A stretch of DNA of 64,000 nt from contig CAIYHQ010000131.1 in NCBI GenBank assembly GCA_903926075.1, positions 1-64,000 on the forward strand, written 5' to 3'. A program made the position numbers and the translations under genes. Every line of letters begins with the position of its first letter. The first letter of the stretch is position 1. The notes beneath the pieces were generated by a model. It worked only from the letters and a program-made list of their open reading frames with translations, was not told where the DNA came from and did not search any database. Source of the DNA: an uncultured Methanomicrobiales archaeon (GTDB lineage: Archaea > Halobacteriota > Methanomicrobia > Methanomicrobiales > Methanospirillaceae). Shown in pieces: positions 16,825 to 57,393 of this stretch.

Positions 16825-19098
16825 ATGGTTTTACCGGATAAAAAAAATAATAAACCGGCAAATGTGGTCTCCAGGTCTGTCCTGCTTATAGAAGACGACG
16901 AGGTAGACCAGATTGCATTTATCCGGGCTGTCCGCGAGATGGCAATCCCATATAATTACCATATTGCGGGTTCTTGTGCAGAGGCGGTCAGGCTCATGGA
17001 TACAAAATCTTTTGACCTGATAATTAGTGACATAAACCTGGGAGACGGCACGGTTTTTGATATCCTGGACGAGATCAGAAAAACCAGATCTCCACTCATT
17101 GTAACAACTGGTGCCGGCGATCAGGAAACTGCAGTTAAAGCATTAAAAAACGGTGCCATTGATTACCTGGTTAAAGATTCATCAGGCTCGTATCTGCGCA
17201 TGCTTCCCCATTCTGTTGAACGTGCAATTCTTCGGGACCAGGAACAGAGGCTTCTTTCAACACTCATGGCCGCAGTAGAGCAAACTCATACCGCGATTGC
17301 AATCACGTCAAAAGAGCAGATAATAACCTATTCCAATCCAGGGCTTAATAATTTCACAGAAAATTCCAACAAACGCATATTGGGATCAAATCTCTCGTCA
17401 CTCTTCCACGATAACAATGTCTATTCCGAGGCACTTACTACCGCTGAAACCGGAGGGGTCTGGAATGGCGAGGTGGCACAAAAGAGGCCTGACGGAACGA
17501 CAAGGTGGGAGGTTGTCTCTTTATCCGAAATTAAAAACAGGGACGGCGGGCGTGAAGGATATTTATGGATAGCAGAGGATATCAGCCCTCAAAAAAATGC
17601 CGAATTTGCACTTGAAAAAGAGAAGGAAAGGCTCTCAATTACATTACGGTCCATAGGTGACGGTGTGATTGCAATATCAGGGGACGCAAGAATCATTTAT
17701 ATGAATCCAAAAGCCCGTGAATTGTCAGGTTTTCAATTGGAAAGCAATCCAAATGCCCTGATATCTGAGGTTTACACATTACTTGACCCTGTTACAAAAG
17801 AGAAGTTAAATGGAGATCTATTAAAGGTTGACACTAGTGATACCGCATTAAAGGCCAGATATTTGCTTGTGTCAGGGCCGGGAAAAAAAGAGATTTTTAT
17901 AGAGCAGCATGTAAGTCCACTTCCCCTCCCGGACGGCTCAACAGGGAAAGTTATTGTTTTTCACGACATAACAGACACTATAAGAAAAGAAGAAGAACAA
18001 AGAAGGTTACAACAACTAGAATCACTGGGGATTCTTGCAGGTGGAATTGCCCATGACCTCAATAATATTCTCACTATTATTCTATCAAATATCGTACTTG
18101 TAAGGGATCTCACACCTGAAAATAGCGAAGTCCTGGAGAGGTTGAAGGCTGCTGAGAGGGCAGTCGGTCGTGCAAAATCACTCTCCCGTAAATTTCTCAC
18201 ATTCTCACCAGGTGGAGACCCTGTAAAGGAACCTATTCAACTGGGCGAATTCCTGAAAAGTGCTCCGGGTGGCTATATACAGGGGGGAAATGTTCAAATA
18301 GAGTATGATATCCCCCTTGACCTCCCGATGGTTGAAGTTGATCCGGGTCAACTAGGAGTAGCCATTCACCAGATATCAAGAAATGCGGTAGAATCCATGC
18401 CAAGCTCTGGAAAGTTAAAGATCAAGTGCGAAGTAGATGAGGTTGACAACGGGAAATCGAGGCAGGTTTTGATAAAACTTATTGATACTGGTTCTGGAAT
18501 TTTACCTGAAATCCTGCCGAGAGTCTTTGAACCCTACTTCTCGACAAAAGAGGGGATGCAGGGTCTTGGCCTGACAACAGCTCATTCAATTATTACCCGG
18601 CATAAAGGAAAGATTGATGTCCAGTCGACTCCGGGAAAAGGCACTTCTGTCACTCTATCTCTTCCTTTAACGCAAAATGCTTCCCTTTCAGAAAAACCAA
18701 TTGAGATGAAGGAAAAGACAAGTAACAGGGTACTTGTCATGGATGATGAATCTGCCATTCTTGATATACTCTCAATAATGCTCTCAAAAATAGGTTATAA
18801 GGTTGATAAAGCGCTAGATGGCGAAACAGCCCTCAAGCAGTTCAAGATAGCAAAAGAAGAAAAATCACCTTATGGCCTCGTTATTATGGACCTTATCATA
18901 CCTGGTGGTCTTGGTGGGAAGGAAACGATAAAATTCCTGAGAGAAATGGACAGTGATGTCCCGGTACTTGTCTCCAGCGGTTATTCAAACGACCCGGTTA
19001 TGGCGAATTACCAGGATTACGGGTTCTCAGATTCATTGCCCAAGCCCTATGCCCTTAAACAACTCAAGGAAAAATCCCTTGCCCTGGCTCCTCTTTAA
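16825..19098 (+). CDS. Hybrid histidine kinase (REC-PAS-PAS-HisKA-HATPase-REC)
   Basis: A cytoplasmic 757-residue protein. The receiver at about 18-130 has LLIEDDEVD and IISDINLG. Two PAS domains lie at about 150-265 and 268-395. HisKA has GILAGGIAHDLNNILT. The HATPase has DTGSGI and an F/G2 region (YFSTKEGMQGLGLTTAHSI). A second receiver at about 635-757 has VLVMDDE and VIMDLIIPGG. The GGIAHDLNN box is the NtrB-like type, different from the neighbours. It follows the single-domain regulator by 16 bases and closes the four-gene signalling run. Two receivers suggest a phosphorelay; the target is unknown. Confidence 0.88.
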   Translation: MVLPDKKNNKPANVVSRSVLLIEDDEVDQIAFIRAVREMAIPYNYHIAGSCAEAVRLMDTKSFDLIISDINLGDGTVFDILDEIRKTRSPLIVTTGAGDQETAVKALKNGAIDYLVKDSSGSYLRMLPHSVERAILRDQEQRLLSTLMAAVEQTHTAIAITSKEQIITYSNPGLNNFTENSNKRILGSNLSSLFHDNNVYSEALTTAETGGVWNGEVAQKRPDGTTRWEVVSLSEIKNRDGGREGYLWIAEDISPQKNAEFALEKEKERLSITLRSIGDGVIAISGDARIIYMNPKARELSGFQLESNPNALISEVYTLLDPVTKEKLNGDLLKVDTSDTALKARYLLVSGPGKKEIFIEQHVSPLPLPDGSTGKVIVFHDITDTIRKEEEQRRLQQLESLGILAGGIAHDLNNILTIILSNIVLVRDLTPENSEVLERLKAAERAVGRAKSLSRKFLTFSPGGDPVKEPIQLGEFLKSAPGGYIQGGNVQIEYDIPLDLPMVEVDPGQLGVAIHQISRNAVESMPSSGKLKIKCEVDEVDNGKSRQVLIKLIDTGSGILPEILPRVFEPYFSTKEGMQGLGLTTAHSIITRHKGKIDVQSTPGKGTSVTLSLPLTQNASLSEKPIEMKEKTSNRVLVMDDESAILDILSIMLSKIGYKVDKALDGETALKQFKIAKEEKSPYGLVIMDLIIPGGLGGKETIKFLREMDSDVPVLVSSGYSNDPVMANYQDYGFSDSLPKPYALKQLKEKSLALAPL

Positions 19099-19101
19099 TA
19101 A

Positions 19102-20814
19102 TTATATTTGTTCGCAGTACCTCCATGAAATGGCAGGGATAAGGATGTCGAACTTTGCACCTTCACCTGGTACTCCATTTTCATTGATAGAAATTCCTGT
19201 CACACGAAGTATCTCGCGTGAAATTGAGAGTCCAAGGCCGGTGTTCTTTCCAAACCCCTGGCTGAAAATTAATTCCTTATGGTCATACCGGATACCAACA
19301 CCGTCATCCTTTACAGTAAGCATAAGATCCCCCTCAGTTTTTACGATAGTTGAGATCTGTATTATTTTCAGGCTTTCTCCATGTCGAAGTGCGTTTTCCA
19401 GGAGATTATAAATTACCTTTTCAAAAAGCGGATCTGTGTAAATGCAGACATCTGATATGAGAAGATCTATCCGGACCTTGGTTTCCGGGAGTTCTTTAAT
19501 GGCAGCAGTTATCATCCCGTCCAAAGACTTCCAGACCGGCTGATGAGACCCGATACTTTCATATTCACGTGCAAACTTGAGATGAAGGTCAATTTTGGAG
19601 ATAAGGTCGATACATGACGAAATGTATTGGCTGACTTTTTCACTCACTCCATTCTCTTTCATGAGGATAAGATAGCCATGAATAGCTGTTACCTGGTTGT
19701 TGATATCATGACGCGTAAGTCTGCTTAAAAGAGATATTTTCTCGTTTGCAACCTGAAGGGCCCTTTCTCCTCTCTTTCTATTTGTGATATTCCGGATAAT
19801 GAGAACTATTCCGGCTGGAATTCCTTCAGGGTCCTTTACTACTGAACCAGCAATGCTAATAACAGTGTAATCACATCCCTGCAAAACAGCTTCGCTATCT
19901 GTTATCATACCTTTCCCGAATAGGGCTTTCGTCAGGTTTGTATATACCGGTTCGGGTATTAATTCAGGAAGGGTCAGTCCTTTTAATTCATTTTCGGGTC
20001 TTTTGAAAATTTCTGACGATGCGTGATTGGTATTTCGGATAACTCCATTCATACTTGCAATTATTAATCCATCAGGCATTGTTCTCATTATATTCCTTGC
20101 TGCACTTTCAGGGCTTAAGGTAAAGAGTCCATACCGAAGAATTGCATAGGTGATAATAAGAGAAAAAAAGACTATACCTATAAAAACAAGATTTGGGATA
20201 TATATCCCGTAAGCCGGGAGTATTACTCCGGATAGAGAACCAAAAGCAATCACAATAATTAAACCTGCACTGACAAGGTTGCTCTGTTGCCTGTTCCGGT
20301 ACACGGATCTTACCCAGGAAGAAAGGCTCAGAACTATAGCAAATAACATCAATAAAAGATCATAAAACGCCTCTAACTGGTAAATGATGTTTCCATTTGA
20401 TGGAGAATATGCATATCCAAAATTTGGTATATAGGAGATAGTTAAAACATTATCACTGAAAATTTCGATTATTGCAAATACAAATGCAGGAAGGTAAAGG
20501 AAGAGAAGAAGATATTTCAGATTTTTTCTTTCTGAAATTGGACTCTTTGTATACGCCAGCATAAAATGAACAGTAAGTACTGGTACAAGAATCCAGAAAG
20601 AGCTCACTTTAAGCCAGAATTTCATATTTTCATACCCGGTTGCATCCCAGATAAGGAATTCTCCAATCGCCCAGTAGGTAGCTGCAAGCATCAATGCGAG
20701 AAAAAGGCGGTTTACTAAAGATTTCTGGTTTTTTGCATAGACAAAGAGACCAAGACCATACGTAATAAATGCAGATAAAAGACAGAAAGAGACAAGGAGA
20801 GATTCAATATCCAT
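19102..20814 (-). CDS. 7TM-PAS sensor histidine kinase
   Basis: Residues 1-235 contain seven hydrophobic segments in the pattern of the N-terminal 7TM region of histidine kinases. A PAS domain (about 240-345) follows, with the linker ITNRKRGERALQVANEKISL. The kinase core has SRLTRHDINNQVTAIHGYL as its H-box, an N-box YNLLENALRHGE, DDGVGI and GFGKNTGLGLSISREIL. The TRHDINNQ-type H-box and the C-terminal ISWRY tail link it to the REC-PAS kinases at 22028, 27463, 31686 and 38895. It is convergent with the hybrid kinase, with four bases between their coding ends. Confidence 0.88.
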   Translation of the reverse strand: MDIESLLVSFCLLSAFITYGLGLFVYAKNQKSLVNRLFLALMLAATYWAIGEFLIWDATGYENMKFWLKVSSFWILVPVLTVHFMLAYTKSPISERKNLKYLLLFLYLPAFVFAIIEIFSDNVLTISYIPNFGYAYSPSNGNIIYQLEAFYDLLLMLFAIVLSLSSWVRSVYRNRQQSNLVSAGLIIVIAFGSLSGVILPAYGIYIPNLVFIGIVFFSLIITYAILRYGLFTLSPESAARNIMRTMPDGLIIASMNGVIRNTNHASSEIFKRPENELKGLTLPELIPEPVYTNLTKALFGKGMITDSEAVLQGCDYTVISIAGSVVKDPEGIPAGIVLIIRNITNRKRGERALQVANEKISLLSRLTRHDINNQVTAIHGYLILMKENGVSEKVSQYISSCIDLISKIDLHLKFAREYESIGSHQPVWKSLDGMITAAIKELPETKVRIDLLISDVCIYTDPLFEKVIYNLLENALRHGESLKIIQISTIVKTEGDLMLTVKDDGVGIRYDHKELIFSQGFGKNTGLGLSISREILRVTGISINENGVPGEGAKFDILIPAISWRYCEQI

Positions 20815-20927: not shown

Positions 20928-22004
20928 ATGCAAAAAAAAAAATTGGATCCTGTTTACCATCCGGTTAATCTTAATAGAAAGGAGAATGCCCAAAAGGCGT
21001 ATGAAACTTATAAAGAGCGATATCCGGATATTATCAATGGATATAGCGAATATCAGAGAGCCCGCACATTGGAAGACTTCTCTTACCACCTTCAATATAT
21101 TGAGGAGTCGATTGCAGTAAGTGATGCAGCAATTTTAATTGATTATACAAAGTGGGCAAAGGTACTCCTCGCATCCCTTGGGTTACCTGAAAATTGCCTC
21201 AGAACAAGTCTTGAAGTGGTAAGGGATGTCCTTGACCTGGAACTACCTGAAGAACAGAGTAAAAAAACTCATGAATATATTGAAAAGAGCCTCGCAGCGC
21301 TTATAGGGGCCCCAACTACCATTCCTTCCTTTATCACTGACGATAATCCACTAAAGCAAGAGGCACTTAAATATCTCGATTTTTTATTGCTACAGGCAGA
21401 CCGGACAAAAGCTCGCAACCTGGTTGTTGAGTTGGTGAATCAAGGAGTATCGGTCAGGGATGTGTACCTTTTTATTTATCAGCCTATACTCCATGAGGTC
21501 GGCAGACTATGGCAACTTCAGAAGATTAGTGTGGCGCAGGAACATTATGTTACTGCGTCAACCCAGCAGATCCTTGCTCAATTCTACTTTCAATACATTG
21601 CCAGGAACAAAAATATTATAAAACGAGGTAAGACAGTGGTCACGGCATGTGTTTCAGGTGAACTCCATGAGTTAGGGATACGGATGGTTGCAGATTTTTT
21701 TGAAATGGACGGATGGAATTCATATCATATTGGTGCAAACAGCCCTTTACAAAGCATTGAAACGACAATTAGAGAACGTAAAGCCGTGGTAGTTGCTATA
21801 TCATCAACTATGTCTTTTCATATTCCAAAAGCTTTTTCTCTTATTCAGAGTTTAAGAGAATCTCCGGATACACGGAATATTATCATAATTATTGGCGGGT
21901 ACCCCTTCAATATTGTGCCTGACCTATGGCAACAAATAGGGGCAAATGCGTATGCAAAAGATGCAGAAGAAGCGGTATCGCTCTCAAACGAACTTGTTCC
22001 CTAA
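20928..22004 (+). CDS. Cobalamin-binding sensor protein with CarH-like motifs
   Basis: Residues 1-130 are a helical domain I do not recognise. Residues about 145-225 form the four-helix B12-capping domain and contain W195-x9-E205-H206, the motif that in CarH photoreceptors packs against the adenosyl group. Residues about 233-355 are a Rossmann B12-binding domain with E245-x-H247-x-x-G250, in which the His would be the lower cobalt ligand, and IGGYPFN later. There is no DNA-binding domain, unlike CarH, and no catalytic partner. The kinase gene starts 23 bases downstream, so this is likely its sensory partner. CarH has His right after the Trp; here it is Gln. A methyl-corrinoid or redox role is the main alternative. 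Confidence 0.75.
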   Translation: MQKKKLDPVYHPVNLNRKENAQKAYETYKERYPDIINGYSEYQRARTLEDFSYHLQYIEESIAVSDAAILIDYTKWAKVLLASLGLPENCLRTSLEVVRDVLDLELPEEQSKKTHEYIEKSLAALIGAPTTIPSFITDDNPLKQEALKYLDFLLLQADRTKARNLVVELVNQGVSVRDVYLFIYQPILHEVGRLWQLQKISVAQEHYVTASTQQILAQFYFQYIARNKNIIKRGKTVVTACVSGELHELGIRMVADFFEMDGWNSYHIGANSPLQSIETTIRERKAVVVAISSTMSFHIPKAFSLIQSLRESPDTRNIIIIIGGYPFNIVPDLWQQIGANAYAKDAEEAVSLSNELVP

Positions 22005-22027
22005 AAAAAAAGGTGCAGGAATTATTC

Positions 22028-23215
22028 ATGAATTCAGGTGTTGTGTTTAGTTGTGATTATAATGGTCTTGTCCTGAATGTATACAGGGATGACTTCGATA
22101 TCTTTGGCAATCCAGTTGTTCCTGGGAACCACCTGTCACGTTATATCAGTTCTTCTTCAAAGGAAACAGTGACCCGCTTTTTCTTTAAACTATCCTCTGA
22201 TGGACTTTCATCTAGTAAACGAATAGAATTTTTAACAACAAATACACCGAAGATTCTCTATTGCACGGGTATTCGGGCAATGAACGTTTTTCTTGTATTT
22301 GGTGCATCTTCTCCCTCATATTTAGGCTTATTAATCTCCGGAATTCTGTATTCGGATGATGAGCCAGTTGATCTTGCACAGATATGTGGAACGGGCCTAT
22401 ATCAGGATAACAAAAGATTAACAGACTATCAAATATACGAGGATCTTACTCGTCTGAACAATGAACTGGTCGATATGAGTAGGGAGCTCACAGATACTCA
22501 GGTCGAAATGGAGATGAAAGCAGAAGAATTAAATAAAGAAATTAAAGTGAGATGGCAGACAGAAGAAGCGTTATTAGTCGCCAATAAAAAACTTAACCTA
22601 CTCTCCAGTATAACAAGGCATGATATTAAGAACAAAGTTTTGATTATCCAGGGTTTTTTACATTTTGGACGGAAAATTAAAGTTATTGAAGAGATTGATC
22701 CATTTTTTGATAAGATACATGATGCGACAAAGGCCATTGAAAGTCAGATAGATTTTACTAAAGATTATCAGGACCTGGGGGTAAATTCACCGGTATGGTT
22801 AAATTTATCTGATTTGATTAAATCAGTGGGTAACTCTGCCATCGATATGTTTGATGAGTCCGGAAATCTTGAGATATTTGCAGACCCGCTCTTTGAAAAG
22901 GTGTTATACAACCTCGTCGATAACTCAATGCGCCATGGAGAAACTGTAAACCGTATAGATGTATCTGTCATTACTGAAAATGAAGGTATCCGGATTATCT
23001 GGAAAGATAATGGTGTAGGTGTCCCTCAGGATCAGAAAGAGAAGATCTTTGAACGTGGTTTTGGAAAGAACACCGGCCTTGGCCTTTTCCTTATCAGGGA
23101 AATTCTTGCAATAACCGGAATGACTATAGAGGAGACCGGAGAACCCGGGAAAGGAGCACGTTTTGAGATAATGGTTCAAAACGGGAAGTGGCGTCCTGGA
23201 GGAAATAACCCATGA
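22028..23215 (+). CDS. Soluble histidine kinase paired with the B12-binding protein
   Basis: The frame is open from 21926, but that overlaps the upstream gene. ATG at 22028, after GCAGGA, is the likely start, giving 396 residues. Residues 1-150 form a PAS-like sensory domain with no obvious cofactor motif. A coiled coil (about 155-195) leads to the core: SSITRHDIKNKVLIIQGFL, YNLVDNSMRHGE, KDNGVGV, GFGKNTGLGLFLIREIL, then EPGKGARFEI and the GKWRP tail. In the H-box Lys replaces the Asn usually seen (DIKNK for DINNQ). No membrane segment. Adjacent to the cobalamin protein and probably its output partner. Confidence 0.85.
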   Translation: MNSGVVFSCDYNGLVLNVYRDDFDIFGNPVVPGNHLSRYISSSSKETVTRFFFKLSSDGLSSSKRIEFLTTNTPKILYCTGIRAMNVFLVFGASSPSYLGLLISGILYSDDEPVDLAQICGTGLYQDNKRLTDYQIYEDLTRLNNELVDMSRELTDTQVEMEMKAEELNKEIKVRWQTEEALLVANKKLNLLSSITRHDIKNKVLIIQGFLHFGRKIKVIEEIDPFFDKIHDATKAIESQIDFTKDYQDLGVNSPVWLNLSDLIKSVGNSAIDMFDESGNLEIFADPLFEKVLYNLVDNSMRHGETVNRIDVSVITENEGIRIIWKDNGVGVPQDQKEKIFERGFGKNTGLGLFLIREILAITGMTIEETGEPGKGARFEIMVQNGKWRPGGNNP

Positions 23216-23372: not shown

Positions 23373-24815
23373 TTGGATTTTTCTGGTAATATCCTGATAA
23401 TTGGATATGGTGCAGTCTGCAAGTGTATGCTTCCCCTTCTGTTCAGGCATATAAATATTTCACCTGCGGACATTACAATTATTGATAGCGATGATAAAAC
23501 CGGGGATCTTAAAGACTGGACCTGTCAGGGTCTTCGTTTTTTTCAGAGAAGAGTGACAGAGAAGAACCTGGAAGAAATCCTCGCAGCCTATCTATCACCC
23601 GGGGGATTATTAATTGATCTTGCTTACAATATCGATTGTTGTGAAATTATAAAATGGTGTCATGATAATTTTGTTCTTTATATAAATGCTTCAGTTGAGG
23701 TATGGGATCCTTTTATTGTAAGATTATCAGCAAATCCATACGAAAAATCATTGTATTATCGTCAGATGAAAATTCGTGAGATCACAAAAGACTGGAATGA
23801 TTCAGTGACCTGTGTTGTTGATCATGGTGCAAATCCAGGCCTTATCTCGCACTTTGCTAAACAAGGACTTATAGACATCGCAAACAAGATGATTTTTGAC
23901 GGCATTGCAAAAGAGCCAGAGAGGCTCGAAGAACTCGTAAAAGAAGAAAATTTTGCAAGAATTGCAATGGAGATAGGAATAAAAGTTATTCACTGTTCAG
24001 AACGGGACACCCAGGTTTCGAAAATACCAAAAGAACCTGACGAATTTGTTGGTACATGGTGCGTTGAAGGGTTGATAGAAGAAGGTACAGCACCTGCCGA
24101 AATGGGCTGGGGAATTCATGAAAAGGAATATCCGGGTTTAACCTTCATCCCACCATCAGGGCCGAAAAACGAAGTATTTCTTGCGAAGATGGGAATGAAC
24201 ACATGGGTCAGGTCGTGGATTCCAAATCAGGAAATTGTTGGGATGGCCATACGTCATGGCGAAACTTATGGGATATCTGACAGGTGGACGGTCTGGAAAG
24301 AGGGCAGGGCAATATACCGGCCAAGCGTTTATTATGCATACGTGCCTTGCGATGCTACGGTCGCCTCTCTACATGAACTGAGAGGAAGAAATTATGAATT
24401 GCCTCCAAAGTTCCGTATTATGAATGACGCGGAGATAATATCCGGCGCTGATATTTTAGGGGCACTCCTTATGGGCCATCCATACCAGTCATGGTGGACC
24501 GGGAGCATTCTGTCAATTGAAGAAGCAAGGACCCATGCACCGGGTCAGAATGCCACGACCCTGCAGGTCTCACTCGGGGTAATTGCGGCTGTCATGTGGA
24601 TGATAGAAAATCCAAGGAGAGGGTTTTGTTTGCCTGATGACCTGCCTTACAAGTATATTCTGGATATTGCAAAACCATATCTTGGAACATTCCACTCCGG
24701 ACCCGCTGACTGGAATCCCTTAAAAAACAGGATGATATATTTTAAGGAGAATCCAGAAAATATCTATGACTATGATGATATCTGGCAGTTCAAAAATTTC
24801 TTGTTTGTTCAATGA
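23373..24815 (+). CDS. hss: Homospermidine synthase
   Basis: A 480-residue protein with an N-terminal Rossmann motif (ILIIGYGAVCKCMLPLLFRH, about 7-26). Long conserved stretches such as VVDHGANPGLISHFAKQ and HEKEYPGLTFIPPSGPKNE match bacterial-type homospermidine synthases of the saccharopine-dehydrogenase fold. The enzyme uses NAD to join aminobutyl groups of putrescine (or spermidine) into sym-homospermidine. The TTG start at 23373 is supported by GGAGGT at 23363-23368. The next gene encodes an ornithine decarboxylase-like enzyme that would supply putrescine, 30 bases downstream. Confidence 0.9.
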   Translation: MDFSGNILIIGYGAVCKCMLPLLFRHINISPADITIIDSDDKTGDLKDWTCQGLRFFQRRVTEKNLEEILAAYLSPGGLLIDLAYNIDCCEIIKWCHDNFVLYINASVEVWDPFIVRLSANPYEKSLYYRQMKIREITKDWNDSVTCVVDHGANPGLISHFAKQGLIDIANKMIFDGIAKEPERLEELVKEENFARIAMEIGIKVIHCSERDTQVSKIPKEPDEFVGTWCVEGLIEEGTAPAEMGWGIHEKEYPGLTFIPPSGPKNEVFLAKMGMNTWVRSWIPNQEIVGMAIRHGETYGISDRWTVWKEGRAIYRPSVYYAYVPCDATVASLHELRGRNYELPPKFRIMNDAEIISGADILGALLMGHPYQSWWTGSILSIEEARTHAPGQNATTLQVSLGVIAAVMWMIENPRRGFCLPDDLPYKYILDIAKPYLGTFHSGPADWNPLKNRMIYFKENPENIYDYDDIWQFKNFLFVQ

Positions 24816-24845
24816 ATTGTTCATCATTTTTGAAAGGAGGAGGGC

Positions 24846-26036
24846 ATGAAAGAGTTAAGCAGAGACGAGGACCGGACCAGGGTTTCAAAGCGGGGAAATA
24901 ATCGTAAAAAGATCCTTATGGACCTCGCAGAGAAAGAAGGGACTCCTATATTTGTTGTTGACCATGAAAAAATCCGGAAAAATTATTTGGAATTCAAAGA
25001 ACGCCTTCCTAATGTTCAGATATATTACGCGGTAAAAGCAAATTCCAATCCCGAGATAGTCAGGACTCTTTTTAAGATGGGCTGTAGTTTTGATGTTGCA
25101 TCTATGCCCGAATTCATGATTGTTCATGAAAATATCAAGGATATGCCGGATAAGGAGAGGCAGGACTGGATATGGGACAAAATTATCTACGCAAATACCA
25201 TTAAACCAATCGAGACACTTATTGCCCTCGATAAGTACAATCCACTTGTCACTTTTGACAACAATGAGGAATTGAAAAAGATAAAAAAATATGCTCCACA
25301 TGCAGGACTTGTATTACGGGTTCAGGTCCCAAATACAGGTTCAGTTGTCGAGCTTTCTTCAAAGTTCGGAGCAAACCCTGGAGAAGCCGCAGATCTGATT
25401 GTAATAGCCTTTGATATGGGTCTCATCGTGGAGGGGCTGAGTTTCCATGTTGGTAGCCAGTGTACTAATTTTGAGAACTATATCCAGGCCCTGCAGTTGT
25501 CTGTTAATATTATCAGGGAAGTAGAGACCCGAACAGGTAGAAAGATAGAAATCCTTGATATCGGAGGTGGATTCCCAGTAAAATATCATCCGCAGGTAAA
25601 ATCGTTTAAGACACTTGCGGTCAAACTCAATAAAGAGATAAACCGGCTCTTTAATAACGATATGCAGATCCTCGCAGAACCTGGCAGATTTCTTATTGCT
25701 AATGCCTGTACTCTTGTAGCAAAAGTAATTGGCAAGTCATACCGTGACGGAAAGCCCTGTTATTACATAAATGACGGGGTTTACCACACATATTCAGGCC
25801 AGGTCTTTGACCACTGCACTTATCCGGTCCTTTCGTTCAAAGGTGGTGAGACTGAGATTTCTGCCGTATTCGGACCTACATGTGATGCATTTGATACAAT
25901 AACGCTGAGCGCCGAACTTCCTATGCTCGAGATAAACGACCTTGTTTATTCTGAAAATATCGGAGCTTATTCCCATGCATCGTCAACCTATTTTAATGGG
26001 TTTCCTCCGGCAAAGGTCGTTCATATTAACGAGTGA
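24846..26036 (+). CDS. Ornithine/lysine decarboxylase, fold-III PLP enzyme
   Basis: An alanine-racemase-fold decarboxylase of 396 residues. The PLP lysine is K64 in YYAVKANSNPE. HVGSQC, the GGGFP phosphate loop, AEPGRF and the active-site Cys in GPTCDAFD are all present. GPTCD is the ornithine/lysine-type version; diaminopimelate decarboxylases have G-x-x-C-E. Its position directly after homospermidine synthase supports ornithine decarboxylase making putrescine. A strong ribosome site (AAAGGAGGAGGG) precedes the ATG. Confidence 0.88.
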   Translation: MKELSRDEDRTRVSKRGNNRKKILMDLAEKEGTPIFVVDHEKIRKNYLEFKERLPNVQIYYAVKANSNPEIVRTLFKMGCSFDVASMPEFMIVHENIKDMPDKERQDWIWDKIIYANTIKPIETLIALDKYNPLVTFDNNEELKKIKKYAPHAGLVLRVQVPNTGSVVELSSKFGANPGEAADLIVIAFDMGLIVEGLSFHVGSQCTNFENYIQALQLSVNIIREVETRTGRKIEILDIGGGFPVKYHPQVKSFKTLAVKLNKEINRLFNNDMQILAEPGRFLIANACTLVAKVIGKSYRDGKPCYYINDGVYHTYSGQVFDHCTYPVLSFKGGETEISAVFGPTCDAFDTITLSAELPMLEINDLVYSENIGAYSHASSTYFNGFPPAKVVHINE

Positions 26037-55689: not shown

Positions 55690-57393
55690 ATGGCAAAGAA
55701 GATCGAAAAGACCCAGAAGCTCTTCCTGAAAGCGCTTAAAACAAAGTTTGCAGAGGACCCACAATCCACAACGACCGTCTTCGCCCGCGAAGGCCTGAAG
55801 CAGTCTGCCCGAAAGAGGGAATTCCTTGTAGAGGGGAAGAAAGCCGAGATGGCCCGTGGTATCTCGATGTACGACCCCATACGCTGCCACCTTGGTGGTA
55901 TCCCACTCGGTCAGCGCCAGCTCATGACCTATGAGGTCAGTGGAACCGGTGTCTTCGTTGAGGGTGATGACCTTCACTTCGTCAACAATGCAGCAATGCA
56001 GCAGATGTGGGACGACATACGCAGGACAATTATTGTCGGTATGGACCTCGCCCACCAGACACTCCAGAAGCGTCTCGGAAAAGAAGTTACTCCAGAGACA
56101 ATCAATGAATACCTCCACGTCCTGAACCATGCAATGCCAGGAGCAGCAGTCGTACAGGAACACATGGTTGAGACTCACCCCGGACTTGTCGATGACTGTT
56201 ACGTCAAGGTCTTTACCGGTGACGATGAGATGGCAGACAGCCTTGAAAAGCAGTTTGTTATTCCAATCGAGAAGTTATTCCCGAAGAAGCAGGCAGAAGC
56301 CCTGAAGGCAGCAGTCGGCAAGTCTATGTGGCAGGCTGTTCACATCCCGACAATCGTATCAAGAACCTGTGATGGGGGTACAACCTCAAGATGGTCTGCG
56401 ATGCAGCTCGGTATGTCTTTCATTGGTGCATACAGGATGTGTGCCGGTGAAGCAGCAGTCGCCGACCTTTCATACGCGGCAAAGCACGCCGGTGTCATCC
56501 AGATGGCCGACATCCTGCCAGCTCGCCGTGCACGTGGCCCGAACGAGCCAGGTGGAATTAAATTCGGTCACTTCGCTGACATGATCCAGGGAGACCGTAA
56601 GTATCCAAACGACCCCGCAAAGGCAACCCTTGAGGTCGTCGGTGCTGGTGCGATGCTCTTCGACCAGATCTGGCTCGGATCCTACATGTCCGGCGGTGTC
56701 GGTTTCACTCAGTATGCAACAGCAGCATACACCGACAACATCCTCGATGACTATACATACTACGGTATGGACTACATCAAGGACAAGTACAAAATCGACT
56801 GGAAGAACCCAAGCGAGAAGGACAAGGTCAAACCAACCCAGGAAGTTGTCAACGACATTGCAACTGAGGTCAACCTCTATGGTATGGAGCAGTACGAGCA
56901 GTTCCCAACTGCACTTGAGTCCCACTTCGGTGGTTCACAGCGTGCAAGTGTCCTTGCAGCAGCATCAGGTATATCTGTCGGAATTGCAACCGGTAACTCC
57001 AATGCAGGTCTGAACGGATGGTACCTTTCCATGCTTATGCACAAGGAAGGATGGTCACGTCTCGGATTCTTCGGTTACGACCTTCAGGACCAGTGTGGTT
57101 CCACAAACTCGCTCTCCATGAGACCTGACGAAGGTGCAATCGGTGAGCTCCGTGGCCCCAACTATCCAAACTATGCAATGAATGTCGGACACCAGGGTGA
57201 ATATGCCGCAATCGCAGGCTGTGCCCATTACAGCCGCGGTGATGCGTGGTCACTCTCTCCCCTGATCAAGATCACCTTCGCAGACCCGTCCCTCAAGTTC
57301 GACTTTTCAGAGCCACGCCGTGAGTTTGCAAAGGGTGCACTACGCCAGTACATGCCCGCTGGTGAGCGCTCTCTGATCATCCCGGCAAGATAA
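55690..57393 (+). CDS. mcrA: Methyl-coenzyme M reductase alpha subunit
   Basis: A 567-residue catalytic subunit. It carries the regions that bear the known modified residues: [20 protein letters not shown] (methyl-His and methyl-Arg positions), and [20 protein letters not shown] (thioglycine and the nearby Cys), plus the mcrA marker [19 protein letters not shown]. The ATG at 55690 is used, with GGAGTG at 55678-55683; the GTG at 55681 would overlap the mcrG stop. Single mcr copy in the window. Confidence 0.98.

Follow-up and report, generated by a model that had tools for sequence, protein, structure and literature searches.

Photoglobins, reportedly described by Schneider et al. in 2022, are said to be fusions of a phycobiliprotein-like globin with a B12 domain, the same combination as in the sensor protein studied here. 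In CarH, the histidine beside the pocket tryptophan is the second ligand in the light state.

For the photocobilin SasPcob, the accessible part of the published report names Trp61, Glu71-His72 and His108 as the adenosylcobalamin residues and Asp270 and Trp296 as the biliverdin contacts; in the light state the cobalt is water-ligated and the Glu-His helix is shifted by about 2.4 Å (PMC10979010). Further, the same part of that source reports, from predicted models, groups that have the AdoCbl domain at either end of the protein. Light-responsive cobalamin domains are described by the motif set GxxW, EH, GxxH and GxxxP (PMC11796333, accessible part), and BBAG-2 globins are biliverdin-binding and have no CXRD motif (PMC10151467, accessible part).

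The window analyzed here, that is the whole stretch of 64,000 nucleotides, contains on its forward strand a gene for a B12-binding sensor of 358 residues (20928..22004), followed by a gene for a soluble histidine kinase of 395 residues (22028..23215). An earlier note had described the sensor as a CarH-type protein that lacks a DNA-binding domain and lies 23 bases ahead of the kinase gene. The gap is as described, from the sensor stop at 22004 to the kinase ATG at 22028 (22005..22027, forward strand), and the Pfam scan finds no DNA-binding domain in the sensor. The kinase frame is open already from 21926, with a GTG at 22013. Just upstream of the pair, on the reverse strand at 16825-19098 and 19102-20814, lie genes for a two-receiver PAS hybrid kinase and for a 7TM-PAS histidine kinase; after the kinase, two ORFs at 23373-26036 resemble, by eye, a homospermidine-synthase-type protein and a PLP decarboxylase.

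Three Pfam domains are found in the sensor: Phycobilisome (PF00502, residues 14-125), B12-binding_2 (PF02607, 154-218) and B12-binding (PF02310, 236-350). The last two correspond to a four-helix B12 capping bundle at about residues 140-226 (21345..21605, forward strand; helices at 143-225) and to a Rossmann B12-binding domain at residues 231-358 (21618..22001, forward strand), which is also matched by 8j2w. The first, a phycobiliprotein-like (photoglobin) domain at residues 14-130 (20967..21317, forward strand), was overlooked in the earlier note. PF00502 matches the sensor at E 1.7e-7, which exceeds the Pfam cut-off, and the N-terminal domain alone at 2.5e-8. When a profile of this domain from 78 sensor loci is compared with the PDB, the globin domains of the photocobilins 8j2x and 8j2w come first (4.7e-9), allophycocyanin second (8e-8), and the rest are mostly phycobiliproteins. 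Of these 78 N-terminal domains, 42 also match the phycobilisome model of Pfam.

The B12 module gives the same answer. In a PDB search with the single sequence, the photocobilins 8j2w, 8j2x and 8j2y are within the best four rows, and these alignments match the globin domain too, with the domain order reversed, although the globin part is weak (i-E 0.044). The AF2 model of the sensor (pLDDT 95.3, pTM 0.90, from a 65-row alignment) has 8j2w as its best match in a fold search (Z 24.9, rmsd 2.1 Å over 208 residues, 28% identity). This is followed by 8j2y and 8j2x, and then by the monomethylamine corrinoid protein 3ezx (21.7), MetH (21.2) and CarH (20.7). It should be noted that the fold search covered mainly residues 140-358, the B12 module, so the globin assignment rests on sequence profiles.

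Given this N-terminal phycobiliprotein-type globin domain, the sensor is, by its sequence, a photocobilin with reversed domain order (globin first, B12 second) that is made as a stand-alone protein, and not a CarH relative. That it is instead an ordinary CarH-family light regulator minus its DNA-binding domain we consider very unlikely. The signature motifs are common to both, and CarH structures do match (Z 20.7; 5c8d at E 1.3e-13 with the full-length sensor profile), but photocobilins score far better in the same profile search (8j2x at 1.4e-45), a phycobiliprotein-like domain precedes the B12 module, and the tryptophan is followed by Gln, not His. Plain CarH is thus disfavored both by domain make-up and by score; of the earlier description the pocket signature stands, while the relationship to CarH does not.

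The pocket motifs had been read correctly. W195-Q196-x8-E205-H206 (GxxW ... EH, 21510..21545, forward strand) is the motif of the upper-face adenosyl pocket, and E245-L-H247-E-L-G250 (21660..21677, forward strand) is the lower axial ligand motif. In 101 homologous loci, two of which are duplicates, W195, E205 and H206 are unchanged in all, and H247 is kept in 100. The full GxxW/EH/GxxH/GxxxP signature is present in the sensor, which is its sole carrier among the 63 window ORFs of at least 120 residues; written as a single regular expression it fits 69 of the 101 loci. The paralogue L002 fails because of residue 244, where Asp replaces Gly and GxxH is missing. A further B12 protein of the same genome, on contig C5, is without the signature. 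This is a 235-residue B12-type protein (L003:1417-2121) that has the bundle Trp and no Glu-His motif; it starts where a histidine kinase ORF ends, and so represents a different type of B12-kinase pair.

The Gln in place of the CarH His was also noted before, there as a difference that would change the photochemistry, if there is any. The residue is indeed Gln (Q196), but SasPcob has the same residue and so do 86 of the 101 homologous loci, so that Gln after Trp is the rule of the family. This suggests photocobilin-type light chemistry rather than an oddity, and the archaeal sensor is probably light-sensing.

The invariant Trp and Glu-His also bear on whether the sensor could be the corrinoid protein of a methyltransferase system. 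NCBIfam models of MtbC, MtgC and MtaC do match it, and 3ezx is found at Z 21.7. The NCBIfam scores are, however, far under the curated cut-offs, none of which is exceeded (54 against 350 bits for MtbC), and the additional globin domain and a kinase-type partner in 77/97 loci point elsewhere. We give this reading hardly any credence at all, in line with the earlier note, which did not take the protein for a methyltransferase subunit.

In the globin domain, the two biliverdin-contacting residues of SasPcob have counterparts. Asp270 aligns with D50 (21075..21077, forward strand) and Trp296 with W76 (21153..21155, forward strand) in both the single-sequence and the profile alignment, where SasPcob residue numbers are the chain index plus 6; the correspondence comes from sequence and not from a ligand-bound structure. 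W76 is kept in 94 of the 101 loci, a count biased by the search itself, since this Trp is part of DYTKWAK, one of its two patterns.

The partner kinase has all its motifs intact. The presumed phospho-acceptor is H198 in the DHp domain (TRHDIKNK, 22619..22621, forward strand), and the HATPase_c catalytic domain (22892..23176, forward strand; E 7e-17) has its N box (N295-N299), DNGVG and GLGL. HisKA is matched at only E 0.086 with Pfam, and the AF2 model has a pLDDT of 88.7. Outside this kinase core, the N-terminal domain (22034..22348, forward strand) gets no name from Pfam. We describe it as PAS-like from the strand/helix order in the AF2 model and from whole-length matches to LOV kinases, these at an rmsd above 20 Å. 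Ahead of the DHp domain lies a coiled-coil signature, LTRLNNELVDMSREL (22445..22489, forward strand).

The PAS-like N-domain and the coil with LNNEL..QREL are what the partners have in common across phyla outside the kinase core. A profile built from bacterial partners only matches the window kinase at E 1.5e-12 for the N-domain and at 4.4e-21 for N-domain plus coil, and no other window ORF scores better than E 2. Two Methanosarcinaceae partners keep the coil part only, which suggests that the coil is the likeliest site where the signal would enter.

In general the sensor gene is followed directly by such a partner. Among 97 loci, which come from archaea and many bacterial phyla, 77 have a downstream protein that matches the kinase profile or its N-region; the 97 are the 101 loci minus the duplicates L006 and L007 and minus L017 and L086, which have insufficient flank. 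The two genes are often joined by a 4-base stop/start overlap, and a scan of 70 downstream proteins finds HATPase_c in 62 of them and HisKA in 56. Methanolobus and Methanohalophilus are among the carriers of paired homologues. In the same genome a second whole pair is found on contig C128 (sensor 68%, kinase 64% identical), and this paralogous sensor likewise combines the Pfam phycobilisome and B12 domains. The pairing is thus real: it is duplicated within the genome and the downstream partner is conserved. The earlier description of a two-gene pair of sensor and kinase in an archaeon is borne out, but the pair is no private possession of archaea.

Several loci show variations. The second pair is directly preceded, in the same direction, by two receiver-PAS-histidine kinase ORFs of 717 and 1007 residues (L106:2357-9878, domains read by eye), which together with the pair could possibly form a phosphorelay. 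In the sister genome L026 two further kinases, one with a receiver, follow the pair (also read by eye). Three Adhaeribacter partners (L059, L068, L074) are only 164-173 residues long and comprise the N-region plus coil but no kinase domain. A 542-residue sensor (L017:295-1920, reverse strand), in which the profile match stops at profile position 296, continues for about 250 residues and is possibly fused to another domain.

Asp50 is present in 75 of the 77 kinase-paired sensors but in only 4 of the 20 unpaired ones, being replaced in the other 16. We rejected this association as a functional test: the tree yields only three independent pairs, so the association comes down to essentially one event, in the Methanoregula-type clade. 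In this clade (L007-L024, L028, L087) the sensor mostly has no kinase beside it, and Glu, His or Arg stands in place of the bilin-contact Asp and, in part, of the Trp.

Taking these observations together, we regard it as fairly probable that the two genes encode a sensory unit of two proteins, in which a reversed photocobilin signals to the adjacent kinase. In the dark the sensor would most likely bind an alkylated (adenosyl-type) cobamide, with H247 as its lower ligand and W195 and E205-H206 holding the adenosyl side. A linear tetrapyrrole would occupy the globin pocket at Asp50/Trp76, and the sensor, as a dimer, would be docked on the kinase. Exposure to light, which would break the Co-C bond, or the loss of that bond as such would then alter the packing of the helical bundle and the globin domain, and the change may reach the PAS-like domain and the NNEL-QREL coiled coil of the kinase through contact between the two proteins. 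As output, autophosphorylation of His198 would be altered, in one direction or the other, followed by phosphotransfer to a putative receiver. Counting against this reading are the failure to find PF01126 heme oxygenase, HutW, a convincing AhbD or either of two adenosyltransferase families in the own genome, the replaced Asp50 of most unpaired relatives, and the missing GxxH of the paralogue L002.

The host is a methanogen, as mcrA lies in the same window (56662-57063); this fits the anaerobic archaeon assumed in the earlier note. The closest named relatives of the sensor are Methanomicrobiales, and a sensor tree of 99 rows, made with a quick method, places 23 rows, those of Methanomicrobiales and of the window's family, together in a single group with full support. 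The other 76 rows are bacteria, two Methanosarcinaceae and one Lokiarchaeon. Within the window's class the globin domain is found in 20 of 199 genomes, all of one family, and in 4 of 37 genera when counted among the more complete genomes.

For a methanogen such as this host, cobamide lies at the core of metabolism, and the pair might instead sense whether this cofactor is in its adenosyl, methyl or cob(II)amide form, and with it redox state or the load of methyl transfer, with light being incidental and the globin structural or free of pigment. The supply of cofactors speaks for such a role, since neither a known bilin-making enzyme nor a known adenosyltransferase is found in the own genome. 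Heme oxygenase (PF01126) has no match there, is absent in 20/20 genomes of the window's family that have the sensor gene, and is found in just 6 of 49 further sensor-bearing genomes. These counts refer to the PF01126 family only and to genomes that are partly incomplete. For the corrinoid adenosyltransferase, two families were searched and neither has a match in the own genome; M. jannaschii is not among the positive controls for these families, so in some methanogens this reaction may be carried out by an enzyme that goes unrecognized. Against cobamide-state sensing stand the residues Trp195 and Glu205-His206, which never vary in the homologous loci and correspond to those that hold the adenosyl group in SasPcob, and the bilin-contact Asp, kept in nearly all kinase-paired sensors. 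We consider this reading possible, though clearly less probable than the light-signaling unit.

The same absence can be read in another way: the globin domain may bind a linear tetrapyrrole other than the biliverdin made by heme oxygenase, either imported or an anaerobic bilane or bilin. The pocket residues are kept, yet heme oxygenase is absent in all 20 family genomes and in 43 of the 49 others. Further, the heme synthase AhbD is unconvincing in the own genome, where the best match (104.8 bits) covers half the model in a 710-residue frame and is read as general radical-SAM similarity; the two Methanosarcinaceae genomes reach 574 and 601 bits. No candidate enzyme or ligand emerged, however, and the limits of the heme oxygenase search, one family and many incomplete genomes, weigh on the other side, so that we hold the alternative pigment to be doubtful. 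Anaerobic bilin making by HutW was considered and rejected, with 0/29 genomes above the cut-off and no match in the own genome.

A wider claim, which we find rather improbable, is that the sensor-kinase unit conserved in archaea and across many bacterial phyla detects light, or the tetrapyrrole state of the cell, through a cobamide plus a linear tetrapyrrole that does not come from heme oxygenase, with the second pigment of strict anaerobes made by an oxygen-free route. If such a route existed, bilin-type photoreception would be independent of oxygen. A conserved bilin pocket without a recognized heme oxygenase raises the question of which pigment, if any, is bound, and whether it can be made without oxygen.

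If the light-signaling reading is true, methanogens have a light-sensing two-component input. Within the photocobilin family there would then be a stand-alone branch of wide distribution that signals through its own dedicated histidine kinase, recognizable by its partner region. Such a module would lend itself to study and to the control of kinases by red or green light.

Compared with CarH (5C8D), the sensor shares the AdoCbl pocket motifs (Trp, Glu-His); unlike CarH it has neither the N-terminal MerR-type DNA-binding domain nor a residue like His132 beside the Trp. With the BBAG-2 globins it shares the photoglobin branch of phycobiliprotein-like globins, but those are, in the accessible part of the source, separate proteins tied to heme oxygenase and bilin reductase genes (PMC10151467), whereas the sensor's genome has no recognized heme oxygenase.

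The closest relatives are SasPcob and AbDPcob (PDB 8J2W, 8J2X, 8J2Y; PMC10979010, accessible part), in which both domains are homologous and the W-EH and E/DxH motifs are the same; SasPcob further shares the Gln after Trp and the two aligned bilin contacts. They differ in that the sensor has the reversed domain order, that its output is a separate, adjacent histidine kinase, and that its host is a methanogen without a recognized heme oxygenase. Proteins with the AdoCbl domain at one end or the other have been reported before, so neither the family of the sensor nor its domain order is new. The kinase pair is unmentioned in the photocobilin and photoglobin literature searched, with most subscription papers and the founding photoglobin paper outside its scope; in the accessible parts of the sources, the main text of PMC10979010 never uses the word "kinase", and "histidine kinase" is missing from PMC11796333. 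Relative to that literature, what appears to be new is the missing bilin route, the methanogen host, and a dedicated kinase whose partner region is conserved over many phyla.
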